From assembly GCA_947173495.1 (NCBI GenBank), contig CAMWFQ010000014.1, forward strand, positions 1 to 64,000: a stretch of DNA of 64,000 nt, given 5' to 3'. Below the pieces are notes generated by a model. It was given only the letters and a program-made list of their open reading frames with translations, had not been told where the DNA came from and did no database searches. Positions 3,646 to 63,592 of this stretch are shown here, piece by piece (within the stretch, counting starts at the first letter, position 1; every line of letters starts with the position of its first letter). Source of the stretch: an uncultured Lachnospiraceae bacterium (GTDB lineage Bacteria; Bacillota; Clostridia; Lachnospirales; Lachnospiraceae). Made by a program: the position numbers and the translations under genes.

Positions 3646-3700
3646 TAAAGCAAAAATTTTTGTTGTTCGTGAAAGACAGCAGTAAAAGAAACGGGAAAAT

Positions 3701-4309
3701 ATGACAGCAATTATTGATTATGATGCGGGAAATATCAAAAGTGTGGAGAAAGCGCTTCAGAAACTGGGCGAGGAAGCGGTGATCACCAGAGAGAAAGAGA
3801 CAATCTTAAGTGCCGCAAGAGTGATTCTTCCCGGAGTAGGGGCCTTTGGTTCTGCGATGGAGAGATTGCGGACGTATGGACTGGATGAAGTGATTTATAA
3901 AGTGGTTAAAAAGGGGACTCCTTTTCTTGGAATTTGCCTGGGGCTTCAGTTATTGTTTGAAAAAAGTGAAGAAAGCGAAGGCATCAGAGGGCTGGGAATC
4001 CTTCCGGGACAGATTGTACGCCTGCCGGAAGAGAAGGGGATAAAGATTCCCCATATGGGGTGGAATTCTCTCAAATATCCCAATCCGGGAAGGCTGTTTA
4101 CAGGTATTGAAGAGAATTCTTATGTCTATTTTGTACACTCCTATTATCTGAAGGCCCAGGAAGAGGAGATTGTCACAGCGTCATCGGAATACGGAACGCT
4201 GATTCATGCATCGGTGGAGAAAGACAATGTTTTTGCCTGCCAGTTCCACCCTGAGAAAAGCTCTGAGACAGGCCTCAAAATCCTGAGAAACTTCTTAACA
4301 ATAAGCTGA
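3701..4309 (+). CDS. hisH: Imidazole glycerol phosphate synthase, glutaminase subunit HisH
   Basis: This is a class I glutamine amidotransferase of 202 residues, the usual HisH length. The nucleophile C79 sits in G-I-C-L-G, and H183 and E185 in F-H-P-E-K complete the catalytic triad. It supplies ammonia to HisF to make imidazole glycerol phosphate and AICAR in histidine biosynthesis. hisF lies downstream, separated by a tandem 25-bp repeat that begins inside the end of hisH. No other his genes are in the window. The ribosome binding site (CGGGAA) is weak. Confidence 0.95.
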   Translation: MTAIIDYDAGNIKSVEKALQKLGEEAVITREKETILSAARVILPGVGAFGSAMERLRTYGLDEVIYKVVKKGTPFLGICLGLQLLFEKSEESEGIRGLGILPGQIVRLPEEKGIKIPHMGWNSLKYPNPGRLFTGIEENSYVYFVHSYYLKAQEEEIVTASSEYGTLIHASVEKDNVFACQFHPEKSSETGLKILRNFLTIS

Positions 4310-4361
4310 AGGCGTTTGTGTAACAATAAGCTGAAGGCGTTTGTGTAACGATAAGCTGAAG
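4297..4361 (+). repeat. Tandem 25-bp repeat, 2.6 copies, between hisH and hisF
   Basis: Two exact 25-bp units (4297-4321 and 4322-4346) are followed by a partial third (4347-4361, one mismatch). The unit contains AATAAGCTGA, so each copy repeats the hisH stop region. The last copy runs into the hisF ribosome binding site. It looks like a recent slippage duplication that lengthened the spacer. Confidence 0.9.
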
Positions 4362-4376
4362 TCCGGAGGGAGAAAA

Positions 4377-5138
4377 ATGCATACGAAAAGAGTGATCCCC
4401 TGTCTTGATGTGAATAACGGAAGGGTGGTTAAGGGAACAAATTTCCTGAATTTAAGAGATGCAGGCGATCCTGTGGAGGTGGCCGCTCAGTATGATGAGG
4501 CGGGAGCCGACGAACTGGTGTTTTTGGATATTACAGCATCATCTGACGCCAGGAATATTAAAACAGATATGGTAAGAAGAGTCGCGGAAACGGTATTTAT
4601 CCCTTTTACGGTAGGCGGCGGGATCAGGAGTGTGGAAGATTTCAGAATGATCTTAAGAGAGGGAGCTGATAAGGTAGCAGTGAATTCCGCTGCAATCGTG
4701 AATCCGCAATTGATCAGTGAAGCAGCCGAACGATTTGGAAGTCAGTGTGTGGTGGTGGCAATTGACGCGAAAAAAAGACAGGACGGCAGAGGGTGGAATA
4801 TCTATAAAAACGGCGGCCGTATTGATATGGGTATAGATGCGGTGGAATGGGCGATGAAGGCGGAGCAGCTGGGAGCAGGAGAGATTCTTCTTACGAGTAT
4901 GGACTGCGATGGTACTAAAGAAGGATATGATATAGAACTTACCAGAATGACGGCGGATAATGTTTCGATTCCGGTGATTGCCTCAGGAGGCGCCGGAAAT
5001 GCGGAGCATTTTTACGAAGCGCTGACTGCCGGAGGAGCTGAAGCGGTTCTGGCAGCTTCTTTATTCCATTATAGGGAACTTGAAATAAAAGAGTTAAAGG
5101 AATACCTTAAGGGAAAAGGGATTCCGGTAAGAATATAA
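4377..5138 (+). CDS. hisF: Imidazole glycerol phosphate synthase, cyclase subunit HisF
   Basis: This (beta/alpha)8-barrel cyclase of 253 residues has the two catalytic aspartates D11 (I-P-C-L-D) and D130 (V-A-I-D-A). It receives ammonia from HisH and converts PRFAR to imidazole glycerol phosphate and AICAR. The ATG at 4377 is preceded by GGAGG at 4365-4369. An in-frame TTG at 4341 lies inside the tandem repeat and was rejected as a start. Conserved phosphate-binding loops such as T-V-G-G-G-I and S-G-G-A-G are visible. Confidence 0.96.
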
Positions 5139-5202
5139 GTAATAATGAAGCTTAAGGTAAGTTTCTTCTTTGAGAAGAAGTTTGAGGGAGGATAAGATAT
5201 TT

Positions 5203-5880
5203 ATGGCGATGATCGATAATGACTGGCTGGAGTATCTTCAGGAAGAGTTTAAAAAGCCATATTATAAAGAACTGTATGCATTTGTGAAGCAGGAATATAA
5301 TACCCATGTGATCTATCCGCCTGCGGATGACATTTTTAACGCATTTCATCTTACCCCTTTAAGCGAAGTCAAGGTATTGATCCTGGGACAGGATCCTTAC
5401 CATGGCCCGCATCAGGCTCATGGGCTTTGCTTTTCTGTTTTGCCGGATCAGCCTGAGATTCCGCCTTCCCTTCAGAATATCTATAAGGAACTTGAGAGCG
5501 ACCTGGGATGCTATATTCCCAACAACGGTTTTCTGGAAAAATGGGCGCGTCAGGGGGTATTGATGCTGAATACAGTCCTTACAGTCCGGGCGCATCGGGC
5601 AGGTTCGCATCAGGGGAAAGGCTGGGAACAGTTTACAGATGCAATCATCCAGGCGGTGAATGCGCAGGATCGTCCAGTCGTATATTTGCTGTGGGGACGT
5701 CCGGCCCAGAGTAAGATTCCCATGCTTACGAATCCGAGACACCTTATTCTGAGAGCATCTCATCCCAGTCCACTGTCTGCGCAGAGGGGTTTTTTTGGCT
5801 GCAGGCATTTCAGTCAGGCTAATGAATTTTTAGTAAGCCATGGGGAAGAGCCTGTTGACTGGCAGATTGAGAATATCTGA
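5203..5880 (+). CDS. ung: Uracil-DNA glycosylase, family 1
   Basis: This 225-residue protein has the family 1 signature G-Q-D-P-Y-H with catalytic D64, and the H-P-S-P-L-S motif near the C-terminus. It removes uracil from DNA to start base excision repair. The start at ATG 5203 is preceded by GAGGGAGG (5184-5191). A TTG further upstream was rejected. It follows hisF by 64 bp and precedes lysA by 30 bp. Confidence 0.95.
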   Translation: MAMIDNDWLEYLQEEFKKPYYKELYAFVKQEYNTHVIYPPADDIFNAFHLTPLSEVKVLILGQDPYHGPHQAHGLCFSVLPDQPEIPPSLQNIYKELESDLGCYIPNNGFLEKWARQGVLMLNTVLTVRAHRAGSHQGKGWEQFTDAIIQAVNAQDRPVVYLLWGRPAQSKIPMLTNPRHLILRASHPSPLSAQRGFFGCRHFSQANEFLVSHGEEPVDWQIENI

Positions 5881-5910
5881 TCAAAAAGCACAGAGGAGAA
5901 AAGAGGAGAA

Positions 5911-7182
5911 ATGAAAAAATTACCGTTTGTTACAAAGGAAAAGGTAGAGGAAATTGTCAGGACTTATCCGACACCGTTTCACATTTATGATGAAAAAGGA
6001 ATTCGTGAAAATGTAAAAGCTGTGAAAGAGGCCTTTGCGTGGAATCCGGGATTCAAAGAATACTTTGCCGTAAAGGCAACGCCTAATCCCTGTCTGATCC
6101 AGATCCTGAAGGAATATGGATGTGGATGTGACTGTTCTTCCATGACAGAATTATTGCTCAGTAAGGCAGTGGGGATGAGCGGGAATGATATCATGTTTTC
6201 ATCCAATGATACGCCTGCGGAGGAGTATGCCTGTGCTGCAAGGATGGGAGCTGTTATTAATCTGGATGACATTACACATATTGATTTTGTAGAGGGAATT
6301 CTGGGCAGACTGCCGGAAACCATGAGCTGTCGCTATAATCCCGGCGGAGTATTCCAGATGAGCAATGGGATCATGGATAATCCGGGAGATTCCAAATATG
6401 GTTTTACGAGAGAGCAGCTCTTTGAAGGATATCGAATTTTAAAGGAAAAAGGTGTCAGGAATTTTGGAATTCATGCTTTTCTTGCAAGTAATACAGTAAC
6501 GAATGAATATTATCCGACTCTTGCAAAACAGCTCTTTGAACTTGCAGTGGAGCTTCACAGAGAAACCGGCGCGGACATTAAATTCATTAATTTATCCGGC
6601 GGAGTCGGAATCCCATACAAACCGCAGGAGGAACCCAACGATATTAAAGTGATCGGAGAAGGCGTGCGCAGAGTTTATGAGGAAGTGTTGACGGCTGCCG
6701 GGATGGGAGATATTGCAATTTATACGGAAATGGGGCGCTTTATGATGGGGCCTTACGGACAGCTGGTAACGAAGGTAATTCATGAGAAGCATACGTATAA
6801 AGAATACATTGGTGTGGATGCATGTGCGGTGAATCTGATGCGCCCCGCCATGTATGGGGCTTATCATCACATAACGGTACTGGGAAAGGAAGAGGTGGAT
6901 TGTGACCATAAATATGATGTGACAGGTTCTTTATGCGAGAATAATGATAAGTTTGCAGTTGACAGGATGCTTCCAAAGATAGATAAGGGAGATTATCTGG
7001 TGATTCATGATACTGGCGCTCATGGACATTCTATGGGATATAATTATAATGGAAAGCTCAGGTCAGCAGAACTGCTTCTTAAGGAGAATGGAAGCGTTGC
7101 GCTGATCAGAAGGGCGGAAACAGCCAGAGATTATTTTGCAACCCTGGATTGCCTTGAGGTTTATGATAAAATCGAGATGTAA
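5911..7182 (+). CDS. lysA: Diaminopimelate decarboxylase
   Basis: This is a fold-type III PLP enzyme of 423 residues. The PLP lysine is K55 in F-A-V-K-A-T. The glycine-rich S-G-G-V-G segment and the late T-G-S-L-C-E motif, whose cysteine completes the active site of the partner subunit, are present. It decarboxylates meso-diaminopimelate to lysine. No lysine riboswitch is visible in the 30-bp gap upstream, so the gene is probably read from the ung transcript. Related fold III decarboxylases acting on carboxynorspermidine, arginine or ornithine are possible but fit less well. Confidence 0.85.
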   Translation: MKKLPFVTKEKVEEIVRTYPTPFHIYDEKGIRENVKAVKEAFAWNPGFKEYFAVKATPNPCLIQILKEYGCGCDCSSMTELLLSKAVGMSGNDIMFSSNDTPAEEYACAARMGAVINLDDITHIDFVEGILGRLPETMSCRYNPGGVFQMSNGIMDNPGDSKYGFTREQLFEGYRILKEKGVRNFGIHAFLASNTVTNEYYPTLAKQLFELAVELHRETGADIKFINLSGGVGIPYKPQEEPNDIKVIGEGVRRVYEEVLTAAGMGDIAIYTEMGRFMMGPYGQLVTKVIHEKHTYKEYIGVDACAVNLMRPAMYGAYHHITVLGKEEVDCDHKYDVTGSLCENNDKFAVDRMLPKIDKGDYLVIHDTGAHGHSMGYNYNGKLRSAELLLKENGSVALIRRAETARDYFATLDCLEVYDKIEM

Positions 7183-7399: not shown

Positions 7400-7403
7400 G
7401 TAT

Positions 7404-7570
7404 GCGCAGCCCCATGCAGAGGAAGCATGCCGCTAAAGCGGCGCATGAGGCGCGCGGCGAGTAGGGGAAAAAGCATCCCCCTACTCGATTGCACACGGGC
7501 GCACAGCTGAAGTTGTTGCTTATGCAACGTGCGCCCCGTGCGCGAGCAGAGAGAAAATTTTTCTTGCTCG
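7404..7570 (+). repeat. A-B-A-B hairpin repeat array
   Basis: The array alternates two hairpin modules. The first A copy (about 7404-7455) is a variant with inner stem GCCGC/GCGGC. B (7458-7487) is a perfect 10-bp stem CGAGTAGGGG/CCCCTACTCG. The second A (7497-7536) has outer stem GGGCGCAC/GTGCGCCC and inner stem GTTGC/GCAAC. The last B (7543-7570) has CGAGCA/TGCTCG. Together with the tRNA this fills the gap between lysA and the next gene. The same modules recur at 10151, 48915, 53398 and 63421. Confidence 0.85.
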
Positions 7571-7587
7571 AATGTGCAGGAGTGGAT

Positions 7588-10112: not shown

Positions 10113-10149
10113 GAAGGAGTGTGGCAGAGAAGCCATATTCCTTCTTTTT
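10113..10149 (+). terminator. Terminator after nagB
   Basis: A 13-bp stem (10113-10125 / 10132-10144) with two G-T pairs, a 6-nt loop and a T5 tail. Confidence 0.85.
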
Positions 10150-10150
10150 A

Positions 10151-10206
10151 TGTGCAGCCCCATGCAGATGAAGTATGCCGCTAAAGCGGCGTATGGGCCG
10201 TGCGCG
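10151..10206 (+). repeat. Single A-type hairpin repeat
   Basis: Nearly identical to the variant A copy at 7404. It has a GTGCAG lead, an outer stem built on CCCAT/ATGGG, bulge GCAGATGAA, inner stem GCCGC-TAAA-GCGGC, and the trailing CGTGCGC. No B module follows. Confidence 0.75.
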
Positions 10207-10239
10207 ATCCAGACCAGTATTTTCTTTGTCTATCGTACT

Positions 10240-26937: not shown

Positions 26938-26972
26938 CAATCGGGCAGGGGAAATCATCCCCTGCCCGATTG
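26938..26972. terminator. Perfect 14-bp hairpin between convergent genes (solo B module)
   Basis: CAATCGGGCAGGGG (26938-26951) pairs perfectly with 26959-26972 around a 7-nt loop. It lies between the ends of the operon and of uxaC, so it may stop transcription from both sides. The core CGGGCAGGGG/CCCCTGCCCG matches the B module of the repeat arrays. Confidence 0.65.
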
Positions 26973-26989
26973 TCGTCGATTATGTTCTG

Positions 26990-46371: not shown

Positions 46372-46470
46372 ATGTCTTCTGGCAGGTTTTTGAAAATGTG
46401 CGTAGTTATTCAGCCGGGCTGCGCATTCCGCAGGAATATGATTCAGGAGTCATAAATTTTAAATATTCAG

Positions 46471-48856: not shown

Positions 48857-48869
48857 GCCGACATGAAAG

Positions 48870-48910
48870 GGATGTTCCTTCGTTTGAAACAGAACAGGAA
48901 CATCCTTTTT
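48870..48910 (+). terminator. Terminator between khpA and rimM
   Basis: GGATGTTCC (48870-48878) pairs with GGAACATCC (48897-48905), followed by T5. It splits the rpsP-trmD order before the repeat array. Confidence 0.85.
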
Positions 48911-48914
48911 GATG

Positions 48915-49140
48915 CACACGGGCACCCAGAGGAAAAGTGTCAGCAGGAGCTGACGGGTGCCCGGCGCGCGAGTAGTGGAGAAGTACATTCCTCTACTCGA
49001 TTGCACACGGGCACCCAGAGGAAAAGTGTCAGCAGGAGCTGACGGGTGCCCGGCGCGCGAGCAGGGAGAAAACCTTCCCTACTCGATTGTGCAGGCCCGC
49101 AAAAGGAAGTTTGCTACTGAGGCAGCATACGGGCCGCGCG
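48915..49140 (+). repeat. A-B-A-B-A hairpin repeat array
   Basis: A at 48920-48962 has outer stem GGGCACCC/GGGTGCCC and inner stem GTCAGC-AGGA-GCTGAC. B at 48969-48999 has CGAGTAG/CTACTCG. The second A at 49009-49051 is identical to the first over about 50 bp (89-bp period). The second B (about 49059-49085) is CGAGCAGGGA/TCCCTACTCG. A third, diverged A at 49088-49140 has GGCCCG/CGGGCC. It ends 14 bp before the rimM start and probably forms its leader. Confidence 0.9.
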
Positions 49141-49154
49141 CAGGGAGGAAATTT

Positions 49155-53390: not shown

Positions 53391-53397
53391 ATATGCG

Positions 53398-53665
53398 CAG
53401 GGGCGCACAGAGGAAAAATGTCAGCAAAAGCTGACGTGCGCCCCGCGCGTCGGGTAGGGAGAAAAAGCCTCCCTGCCCGATTACACACGGGCGCACAGAG
53501 GAAAAATGTCAGCAAAAGCTGACAGGTGCCCGGTGCGTAGTCAGGGAGAAAAGCCTCCCTGCCCGATTACACAGGGGCGCACAAAGGAAAAATGTCAGCA
53601 AAAGCTGACAGGTGCCTGGTGCGCAGTCAGGGAGAAAAGCATCCATGACCGATTATACACGGGCA
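53398..53665 (+). repeat. Hairpin repeat array with increasing decay, A-B-A-B-A-B
   Basis: The first A (53400-53444) is intact: outer stem GGGGCGCAC/GTGCGCCCC, inner stem GTCAGC-AAAA-GCTGAC. The first B (53450-53480) is a 12-bp stem TCGGGTAGGGAG/CTCCCTGCCCGA. The next A copies begin near 53489 and 53575 and have weaker outer stems, and the next B copies lose pairing. A truncated A continues at 53660 into the nested palindrome. The period is 86-89 bp. No gene is supported in the 505-bp gap between rplS and lepB. Confidence 0.9.
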
Positions 53666-53682
53666 CCGGGAGGAAGTTTGTC

Positions 53683-53803
53683 GTTACTCTTCACGGCTCA
53701 GGAATGCGCACAGGCTGCGCATTCCGTGAGAACATGAGGCAGGAGTGAGAAAATATCGCCCCGAATTGTTGCTATGAGCGGTCCACAGGCCGTGAATAGT
53801 AAC
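53683..53803. repeat. Nested palindrome upstream of lepB
   Basis: Outer arms GTTACTCTTCACGGC (53683-53697) and GCCGTGAATAGTAAC (53789-53803) pair with one mismatch. Inside is a perfect 10-bp stem GGAATGCGCA/TGCGCATTCC (53701-53710 / 53716-53725). The element is joined directly to a truncated A module. Confidence 0.75.
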
Positions 53804-63403: not shown

Positions 63404-63420
63404 AATTTCATGAATGAAAT

Positions 63421-63583
63421 CGGGCAGAGGAGGCTTTTGCCTCTGCTCGTGCGCGGCCCGCAAGCTGCTTCAGCAGCAAATTTCCTTGTGCGGGCCTGTA
63501 CAAAATCGAGCAGGGGAAGATTTTTGCCCCTGCTCGTGCGCGGCCCGCAAGCTGCTTCAGCAGCAAATTTCCTTGTGCGGGCC
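63421..63583 (-). repeat. Hairpin repeat array B-A-B-A in reverse orientation
   Basis: B 63421-63449, A 63455-63496, B 63507-63536 (perfect CGAGCAGGGG/CCCCTGCTCG) and A 63542-63583. A copies have outer stem GGCCCGCA/TGCGGGCC and inner GCTGC-TTCA-GCAGC; period 87 bp. On the minus strand the A module reads like the copy at 49088. The long frames visible here on both strands are products of the repeat. Confidence 0.9.
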
Positions 63584-63592
63584 TGTACATCA

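Follow-up and report, generated by a model that had tools for sequence, protein, structure and literature searches.

A two-module hairpin repeat behind intrinsic terminators in Lachnospiraceae is a candidate terminator-targeting mobile element

We analysed a stretch of 64,000 nucleotides (positions 1 to 64,000 of contig CAMWFQ010000014.1, assembly GCA_947173495.1; hereafter the window) from an uncultured Lachnospiraceae bacterium, the host, and in particular a plus-strand array of hairpin repeats lying between a KH-domain gene and rimM, both of which were named by reading their open frames. The array spans 48913-49147 (48912-49151, with 3 units, by nhmmer) and starts at the intrinsic terminator of the upstream KH-domain gene (48866..48910; 14-nt arms, a 16-nt loop and a T-tract). 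Each unit of the array consists of a hairpin A and a hairpin B. In unit 1, module A occupies 48913..48968, as placed by nhmmer, folding and pairing analysis, and module B occupies 48969..49001, where the hairpin CGAGTAG..CTACTCG is followed by AT. In unit 2, A lies at 49002..49057 (nhmmer, fold) and B at 49058..49087 (fold), while unit 3 (49088..49147, nhmmer) has an A and a B truncated against the ribosome-binding site of rimM. The first 2 units (48913-49001 and 49002-49087) share 98% identity across a 63-nt stretch of their A parts.

The A-B unit has a constant plan and, as delimited by nhmmer in the window, mostly measures 83-92 nt, about 87 nt. After the TGYRCA lead, the 8-9 bp outer stem opens; next come a purine-rich bulge, confined to the 5' side, and a 5-6 bp inner stem capped by a 4-nt loop, before the outer stem returns and GYGCG follows. 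The unit ends with the B hairpin (CGAGYAGGG...CCCTRCTCG, stem of about 10-13 bp) and AT. The A bulge is mostly AGAGGAA or AGATGAA, alternatively AAGGAA, which is one base shorter, and several stem subtypes are visible in the host rows (GGGCACCC, GGCCCGCA, GCCCCATGC and GGGGCGCAC). For a possible closing stem that would join the TGYRC lead to the GYGCG tail, the search pattern parsed 121 of 153 units, 19 of these in a wrong register. RNA folding of 48915-49140 gave z = -7.1, with 0 of 200 shuffles equally stable, and four units folded singly gave z from -4.9 to -9.7. B hairpins standing alone were rare (6 strand-wise listings at 4 places, compared with 178 listings that overlap units). One lone, almost perfectly palindromic B-like hairpin, possibly a remnant, lies in the window at 26938-26976 with no adjoining A.

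The window holds five unit clusters, with 11 strong units and 1 weak unit (nhmmer), and the 11 window copies already reveal compensatory change, as 14 of 20 pairs have changed on both sides with pairing kept. A covariance model built from these copies was then used to search the host genome, where all 150 candidates scored were matches, so that the host has at least 150. In an alignment of 132 host matches (129 distinct, identical rows being counted once; one place is present twice, as L042 and L130), 95% of base-pair cells were paired, compared with 77.8% after shuffling. On the 129 distinct copies, 19 of 20 pairs show double changes, the cells with double changes number 557 against 197 +/- 28 in shuffled alignments, and the covariation score is 0.546 against 0.249 for shuffled columns and at most 0.107 for slid registers. 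Because the alignment was fitted to the covariance model, these pairing and covariation values lean towards structure; despite this, the slid controls and the visible stem subtypes support the covariation of the fold. Double changes occur in all 7 B pairs, yet most B pairs vary in few copies. In addition, the second pair of the inner stem is near-invariant (GC in 119 of 126 cells) and inspection by eye of 66 of the 132 host rows showed hardly any variation in the bulge's GAA; this suggests that sequence is recognised as well as shape. The A-B family is thus supported as a structured two-module repeat with selection on the fold. A preliminary description of this DNA had proposed such a family at 48915..49140, with compensatory changes in its stems and further copies to be sought in the genome. 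All of this is borne out, the family being larger than described, and the stems quoted there at 7497 and 63455 read as claimed. Neither of the outcomes named there as refuting, a lack of further copies or stem changes without compensation, was seen.

The position of the arrays in the host was surveyed in the 96 of 112 that had 60 bases of flank, and the common pattern is a hairpin, a T-tract and then TATGCGCA. By a simple hairpin-plus-T rule, a strong hairpin with a T-tract stands directly upstream of 70 of the 96 arrays, whereas in the controls it stands at 3 of 96 on the downstream side (same strand), at 3 on the antisense strand at the 3' end and at 2 after shuffling. An automatic check called 7 of these 70 hits B-like. 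On visual inspection 4 were judged to be B hairpins belonging to another unit, the other 3 being ordinary terminators, which leaves 66 of 96 arrays behind terminators. The same rule applied to relatives placed 51 of 64 distinct places behind a terminator (shuffled, 2 of 64). The hairpins that precede the units in the 96 host arrays are unrelated to each other in sequence. The nearest upstream gene lies on the same strand for 77 of 98 arrays and on the opposite strand for 15, with none called for 6. In the window, the two-unit array on the minus strand at 63419..63591 (63421-63590 by nhmmer) follows the terminator of a minus-strand gene, showing that orientation follows the terminator and not one DNA strand. 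The arrays had been described earlier as sitting after terminators or directly before genes; the first half of that statement stands, while the placement before genes looks secondary, because it is the upstream hairpin and T-tract that mark the array start.

At the 5' junction, TGYRCA is preceded by A in about 87 of 99 first units, mostly with T's before that A; this count combines 67 units with 20 whose leads had been registered two bases early. Within the same stretches, an AT stands directly after the T-tract at 39 of 51 occupied strong terminators and at 12 of 74 unoccupied ones. At the other end, among 47 last units with no unit-like sequence following, 40 have a T directly after CTCGAT, and later positions look random. 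Inside arrays, CTCGAT mostly runs straight into TGYRCA, without the A.

Array growth was examined on 188 units (157 full length) from retrieved host stretches rather than the whole genome; 14 of 74 planned stretches were outside this sample, some of them covered by other loci. The best identity to a unit elsewhere in the host has a median of 94.3% (n = 47) for the first unit of an array and of 86.5% (n = 37) for the last, and the first unit scores higher than the last in 37 of 53 arrays of at least 2 units (p 0.005). Among partial units, 26 of 31 lack only the 3' part and 5 of 31 only the 5' part. This identity gradient, together with the bias of the partial units, argues that newer copies tend to adjoin the terminator while older ones are displaced and eroded. 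A tandem of near-identical units was also seen on a short contig of a relative (L326, G233:C128:1-2500), where a short spacer replaces the usual lead in a manner resembling local duplication.

The distribution of the unit is patchy. Counts per genome are lower bounds (at least 150 in the host, up to at least 73 in the genus survey and up to at least 11 in the family and class surveys), and the genus, family and class surveys used stricter filters than the host search. Within the genus, the number of matches per genome varies from 0 to at least 73. In the survey that gave this range, 22 of 60 genomes, the host among them, had at least one match. Across Lachnospiraceae, 67 of 397 genomes and 59 of 334 genera carry the unit; in a sample of the class, 4 of 391 genomes do so, all of them Lachnospiraceae and the host among them, and a genome from another family of the same order (G042) has 2 matches. 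Units of relatives share the A-B plan, the weak exceptions being L305 and a few partial units. The unit was not found in phage, plasmid and viral collections, where part of the queries were exact patterns that would miss diverged units.

Identical copies at unrelated terminators indicate recent duplicative movement. One genome (G357) has three units behind unrelated terminators with no difference over the 93-nt unit; in another (G064) four sites behind unrelated terminators share an identical 88-nt stretch, two pairs of loci that represent the same place at contig ends having been counted once. At the rimM locus itself, the model finds a unit in 2 of 80 loci of relatives, one at the KH-rimM site (L155) and one further upstream (L167); a third relative (L151) has a truncated A at the KH-rimM site that the model missed, and several relatives have a bare terminator without a unit there, although some of these bare loci look like the same genomes. 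The nearest species-named relative by rimM is Parablautia intestinalis (76%), which makes the host a species of Lachnospiraceae.

We therefore favour, with a probability of about 0.75, the explanation that the A-B unit is a non-autonomous, terminator-targeting mobile DNA element moved in trans, which appears to have spread through Lachnospiraceae gut bacteria by landing in one direction at terminator ends. The fold, the position at the T-tract, the orientation, the array gradient, the patchy distribution and the identical copies at unrelated sites, on which this explanation draws, were all established by comparing sequences. A trans-acting machinery would copy the unit and set the copy against the 3' edge of an intrinsic terminator's T-tract, pointing the same way as the terminated transcript. 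As the terminator would survive the insertion, further copies could enter at that point and displace the older ones downstream, building head-to-tail arrays, with duplication of neighbours adding copies in some of them. The A and B folds would be kept because only folded copies can be propagated. Considering that the site seems reusable after insertion and that the preceding hairpins are unrelated in sequence, the machinery presumably reads the terminator itself, possibly as a protein or RNA-protein complex recognising the hairpin and T-tract. The conserved purine bulge (AGAGGAA) could perhaps pair with the T- or U-tract through A-T and G-T/U pairs, and the intermediate might be single-stranded DNA or nascent RNA.

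Several points speak against this explanation. Among the 26 host arrays that miss the hairpin-plus-T rule, 6 follow a B hairpin, and 20 of the 96 therefore fail both checks; of the 64 places in relatives, 13 fail the terminator rule. The 20 host misses are mixed: some have T-tracts after longer or weaker hairpins (the main window array is one of these, its terminator loop being 16 nt), one follows a tRNA 3' end, and several have no clear terminator. The A at the 5' junction could be either borne by the unit or a preference of the target for T-tract-A-T, and the pairing of bulge and T-tract is a proposal that the AGATGAA copies break. Similarity is higher between units within one array than between units from separate arrays (median 81.8 vs 71.3), and in an array on contig C2 three units have equal scores, so that local duplication probably also adds copies, contrary to pure insertion. 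The insertion process itself we infer, mobility being read from sequence patterns, and no mobiliser was found among the four enzyme families that we tested.

Small bacterial interspersed repeats are mostly explained by REP-associated tyrosine transposases (RAYTs), REP standing for repetitive extragenic palindrome, or by borrowed transposases of insertion sequences (IS). We searched carriers for Y1 transposases (PF01797), reverse transcriptases (RVT_1), IS110 and Y2. For the last three families the search covered 20 carriers, 12 of them at least 94% complete (range 59 to 100). IS110 had no match in 5 of the 20 and Y2 none in 16; the Y2 search matched four carriers, two strongly and two more weakly, and was also silent in all 14 control genomes. 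One genome with at least 66 units (G020) had no match to any of the four families. No single one of them is universal in carriers, and gaps in the assemblies may account for single absences but probably not for every one. Candidate autonomous copies were sought between same-strand host units about 2 kb apart (on contigs C12, C18 and C52), where the genes, judged from their translations, read as ordinary host genes and hypotheticals. It is conceivable, though we hold it doubtful, that the family represents an undescribed class of mobile element that uses terminators as landing pads, which it would recognise perhaps by pairing its purine bulge with the T/U-tract, that builds arrays outward and that depends on an enzyme outside the HUH-Y1, Y2, IS110 and reverse transcriptase families. 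No description of the A-B family was met in the literature searched, which consisted of the top results of large sets, most subscription papers lying outside it.

Among the alternatives, the one that survives best, while still unlikely, is that the unit is a group IIC intron satellite and owes its insertion to the intron's reverse transcriptase; this would explain the choice of terminators. Group IIC introns are described as landing directly after intrinsic terminator hairpins (PMC4424553), the same target rule as that of the 66 of 96 host arrays, and the ends of the unit, A-TGYGC...AT, are faintly like the intron ends GUGYG...AY, of which GUGYG is given there. Against this, RVT_1 had no match in 6 of the 20 carriers (G020, G202, G233, G364, G383 and the 99% complete G394), and within the genus reverse transcriptases were found in 13 of 21 carriers compared with 10 of 15 non-carriers. 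The host has two, one beside a Cas1-like gene and one among phage-like genes. Moreover, the unit of about 87 nt has no reading frame and no recognised ribozyme domains, A looks unlike domain V, and Rfam gave no intron match in the window, where it returned only tRNA at gathering scores and one weak chance match at E up to 5.

Both reverse transcriptases of the host have features of their own. The first (L247, G000:C5:206500-216327, open reading frame 3664-6465 on the minus strand) is a 933-aa protein with a long, primase-like C-terminal part by reading of its translation; it adjoins Cas1-like and CRISPR-accessory-like genes, and a reverse transcriptase frame of G012 has the same length (935 aa open frame in both). 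The second (L248, G000:C12:100500-111000, open reading frame 4544-5758 on the minus strand) is a 404-aa protein among phage-like genes, possibly of a diversity-generating retroelement, with 418-aa open frames in the host, G012 and G028.

It is improbable that the unit is a miniature inverted-repeat transposable element, or an element like BOX or RUP, moved by the DDE transposase of a resident IS. To our knowledge, pneumococcal BOX has no recognised mobiliser. The unit ends, TGYRCA and CTCGAT, are not inverted repeats, the junctions contain no clear target-site duplication (positions +2 onward look random), and targeting of terminators in one orientation would be unusual for such an element. 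In its favour, the pneumococcus has modular small repeats and IS transposases are proposed as movers of some bacterial repeats (PMC3049150); BOX is described there as a modular, structured small interspersed repeat, like the A-B unit. BOX has the composition A-(B)n-C, whereas here A-B is the unit and starts at terminators.

The preliminary description had looked to bacterial interspersed mosaic elements (BIMEs) and REPs moved by a RAYT, a Y1 HUH transposase, as the nearest analogy, and had proposed a search for a RAYT gene in the host. This search gave zero matches to PF01797 (Y1_Tnp) in the host, as in G020 and G012 (59% complete), with a positive E. coli control, and we rate this origin slightly below the preceding one. 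In 16 further multi-copy genomes, with 5 to at least 11 matches each, Y1 genes were found in 7, one gene of G064 being RAYT-like by translation reading, and in none of the other 9; Y1 was absent from the matches in 12 of 20 carriers, host included. Within the genus, 13 of 21 carriers with at least 1 unit and 7 of 15 non-carriers have Y1 (p 0.5). With the threshold at 3 units the comparison leans positive without being significant (9 of 12 vs 11 of 24, p 0.16), and no unit was found in the 29 Y1 loci examined. The A-B unit is indeed like REPs, REPINs and BIMEs in being a short extragenic hairpin element with more than 100 copies, often clustered and presumably moved in trans, as these are characterised in PMC3733652 and PMC2817692. 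However, a REP is defined there by an unpaired GTAG or CGTC tag at the foot of its palindrome (PMC3733652), while in the A-B unit GTAG lies inside the B stem (CGAGTAG..CTACTCG) and no such foot tag was seen in the 66 of 132 rows viewed. Similarly, REPs alternate in orientation in BIME clusters (PMC2817692), whereas the A-B arrays, assembled from same-strand neighbours, run head-to-tail, and among the host places listed close neighbours lie on one strand with no alternation. The A-B unit further differs from REPs in starting at terminators in one orientation and in its asymmetric A with a long one-sided bulge. Because the family fails defining tests of both systems, it is filed here neither with REP/RAYT nor with group II introns.

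Least probable of all is a non-mobile, cis-acting structured RNA (a regulator or 3' untranslated region element) retained at terminators, since, for all its agreement with the strong covariation and the gene-proximal, mostly sense position, it is at odds with a count of 0 to at least 73 per genome within one genus, with units located after the T-tract and with identical copies at unrelated sites. Minimal elements derived from IS200/IS605 (PATE-like) have hairpins at both ends and no terminal inverted repeats. The A-B unit resembles them in both respects; unlike them, it occurs in a host without a Y1 match (also in G020 and G012), though a Y1 gene may have been present in the past, and has a terminator hairpin beside its target.

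The junction at the T-tract, the terminator-proximal growth of arrays and the family-wide spread are additions to what had been described. If the unit is mobile as we propose, its target, transcript ends entered in one orientation, would be sharper than that of other small interspersed repeats known to us. The unit marks terminators across a whole bacterial family. The recent movement suggested by identical copies, together with the lack of a shared enzyme among those tested, makes the search for a mobiliser concrete, and recognition of the T-tract, if reproducible, could offer a way to place DNA at transcript ends.

The remaining clusters of the window lie on the plus strand. A two-unit array at 7401..7572 (7400-7570 by nhmmer) follows the terminator downstream of a tRNA gene and contains two A subtypes; a single unit at 10148..10229, with an intact A and a decayed B, follows a hairpin and T-tract; and three units with a weak partial fourth follow a terminator at 53392..53685 (53391-53685 by nhmmer). 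Other repeats are present near the A-B units. One short dispersed repeat (GGCTGCGCATTCCG...CAGGAGT) occurs in the window at 46417-46456 and 53713-53752, the copies being 80% identical to each other and the second sitting just past the decayed end of the array described above. A further hairpin repeat (AATAAGCTGGCTCG...AAGCGTGGCAGCG and variants) is found dispersed in the genus (L151, L231, L254, L265 and L266) and in some places lies directly upstream of an A-B unit.
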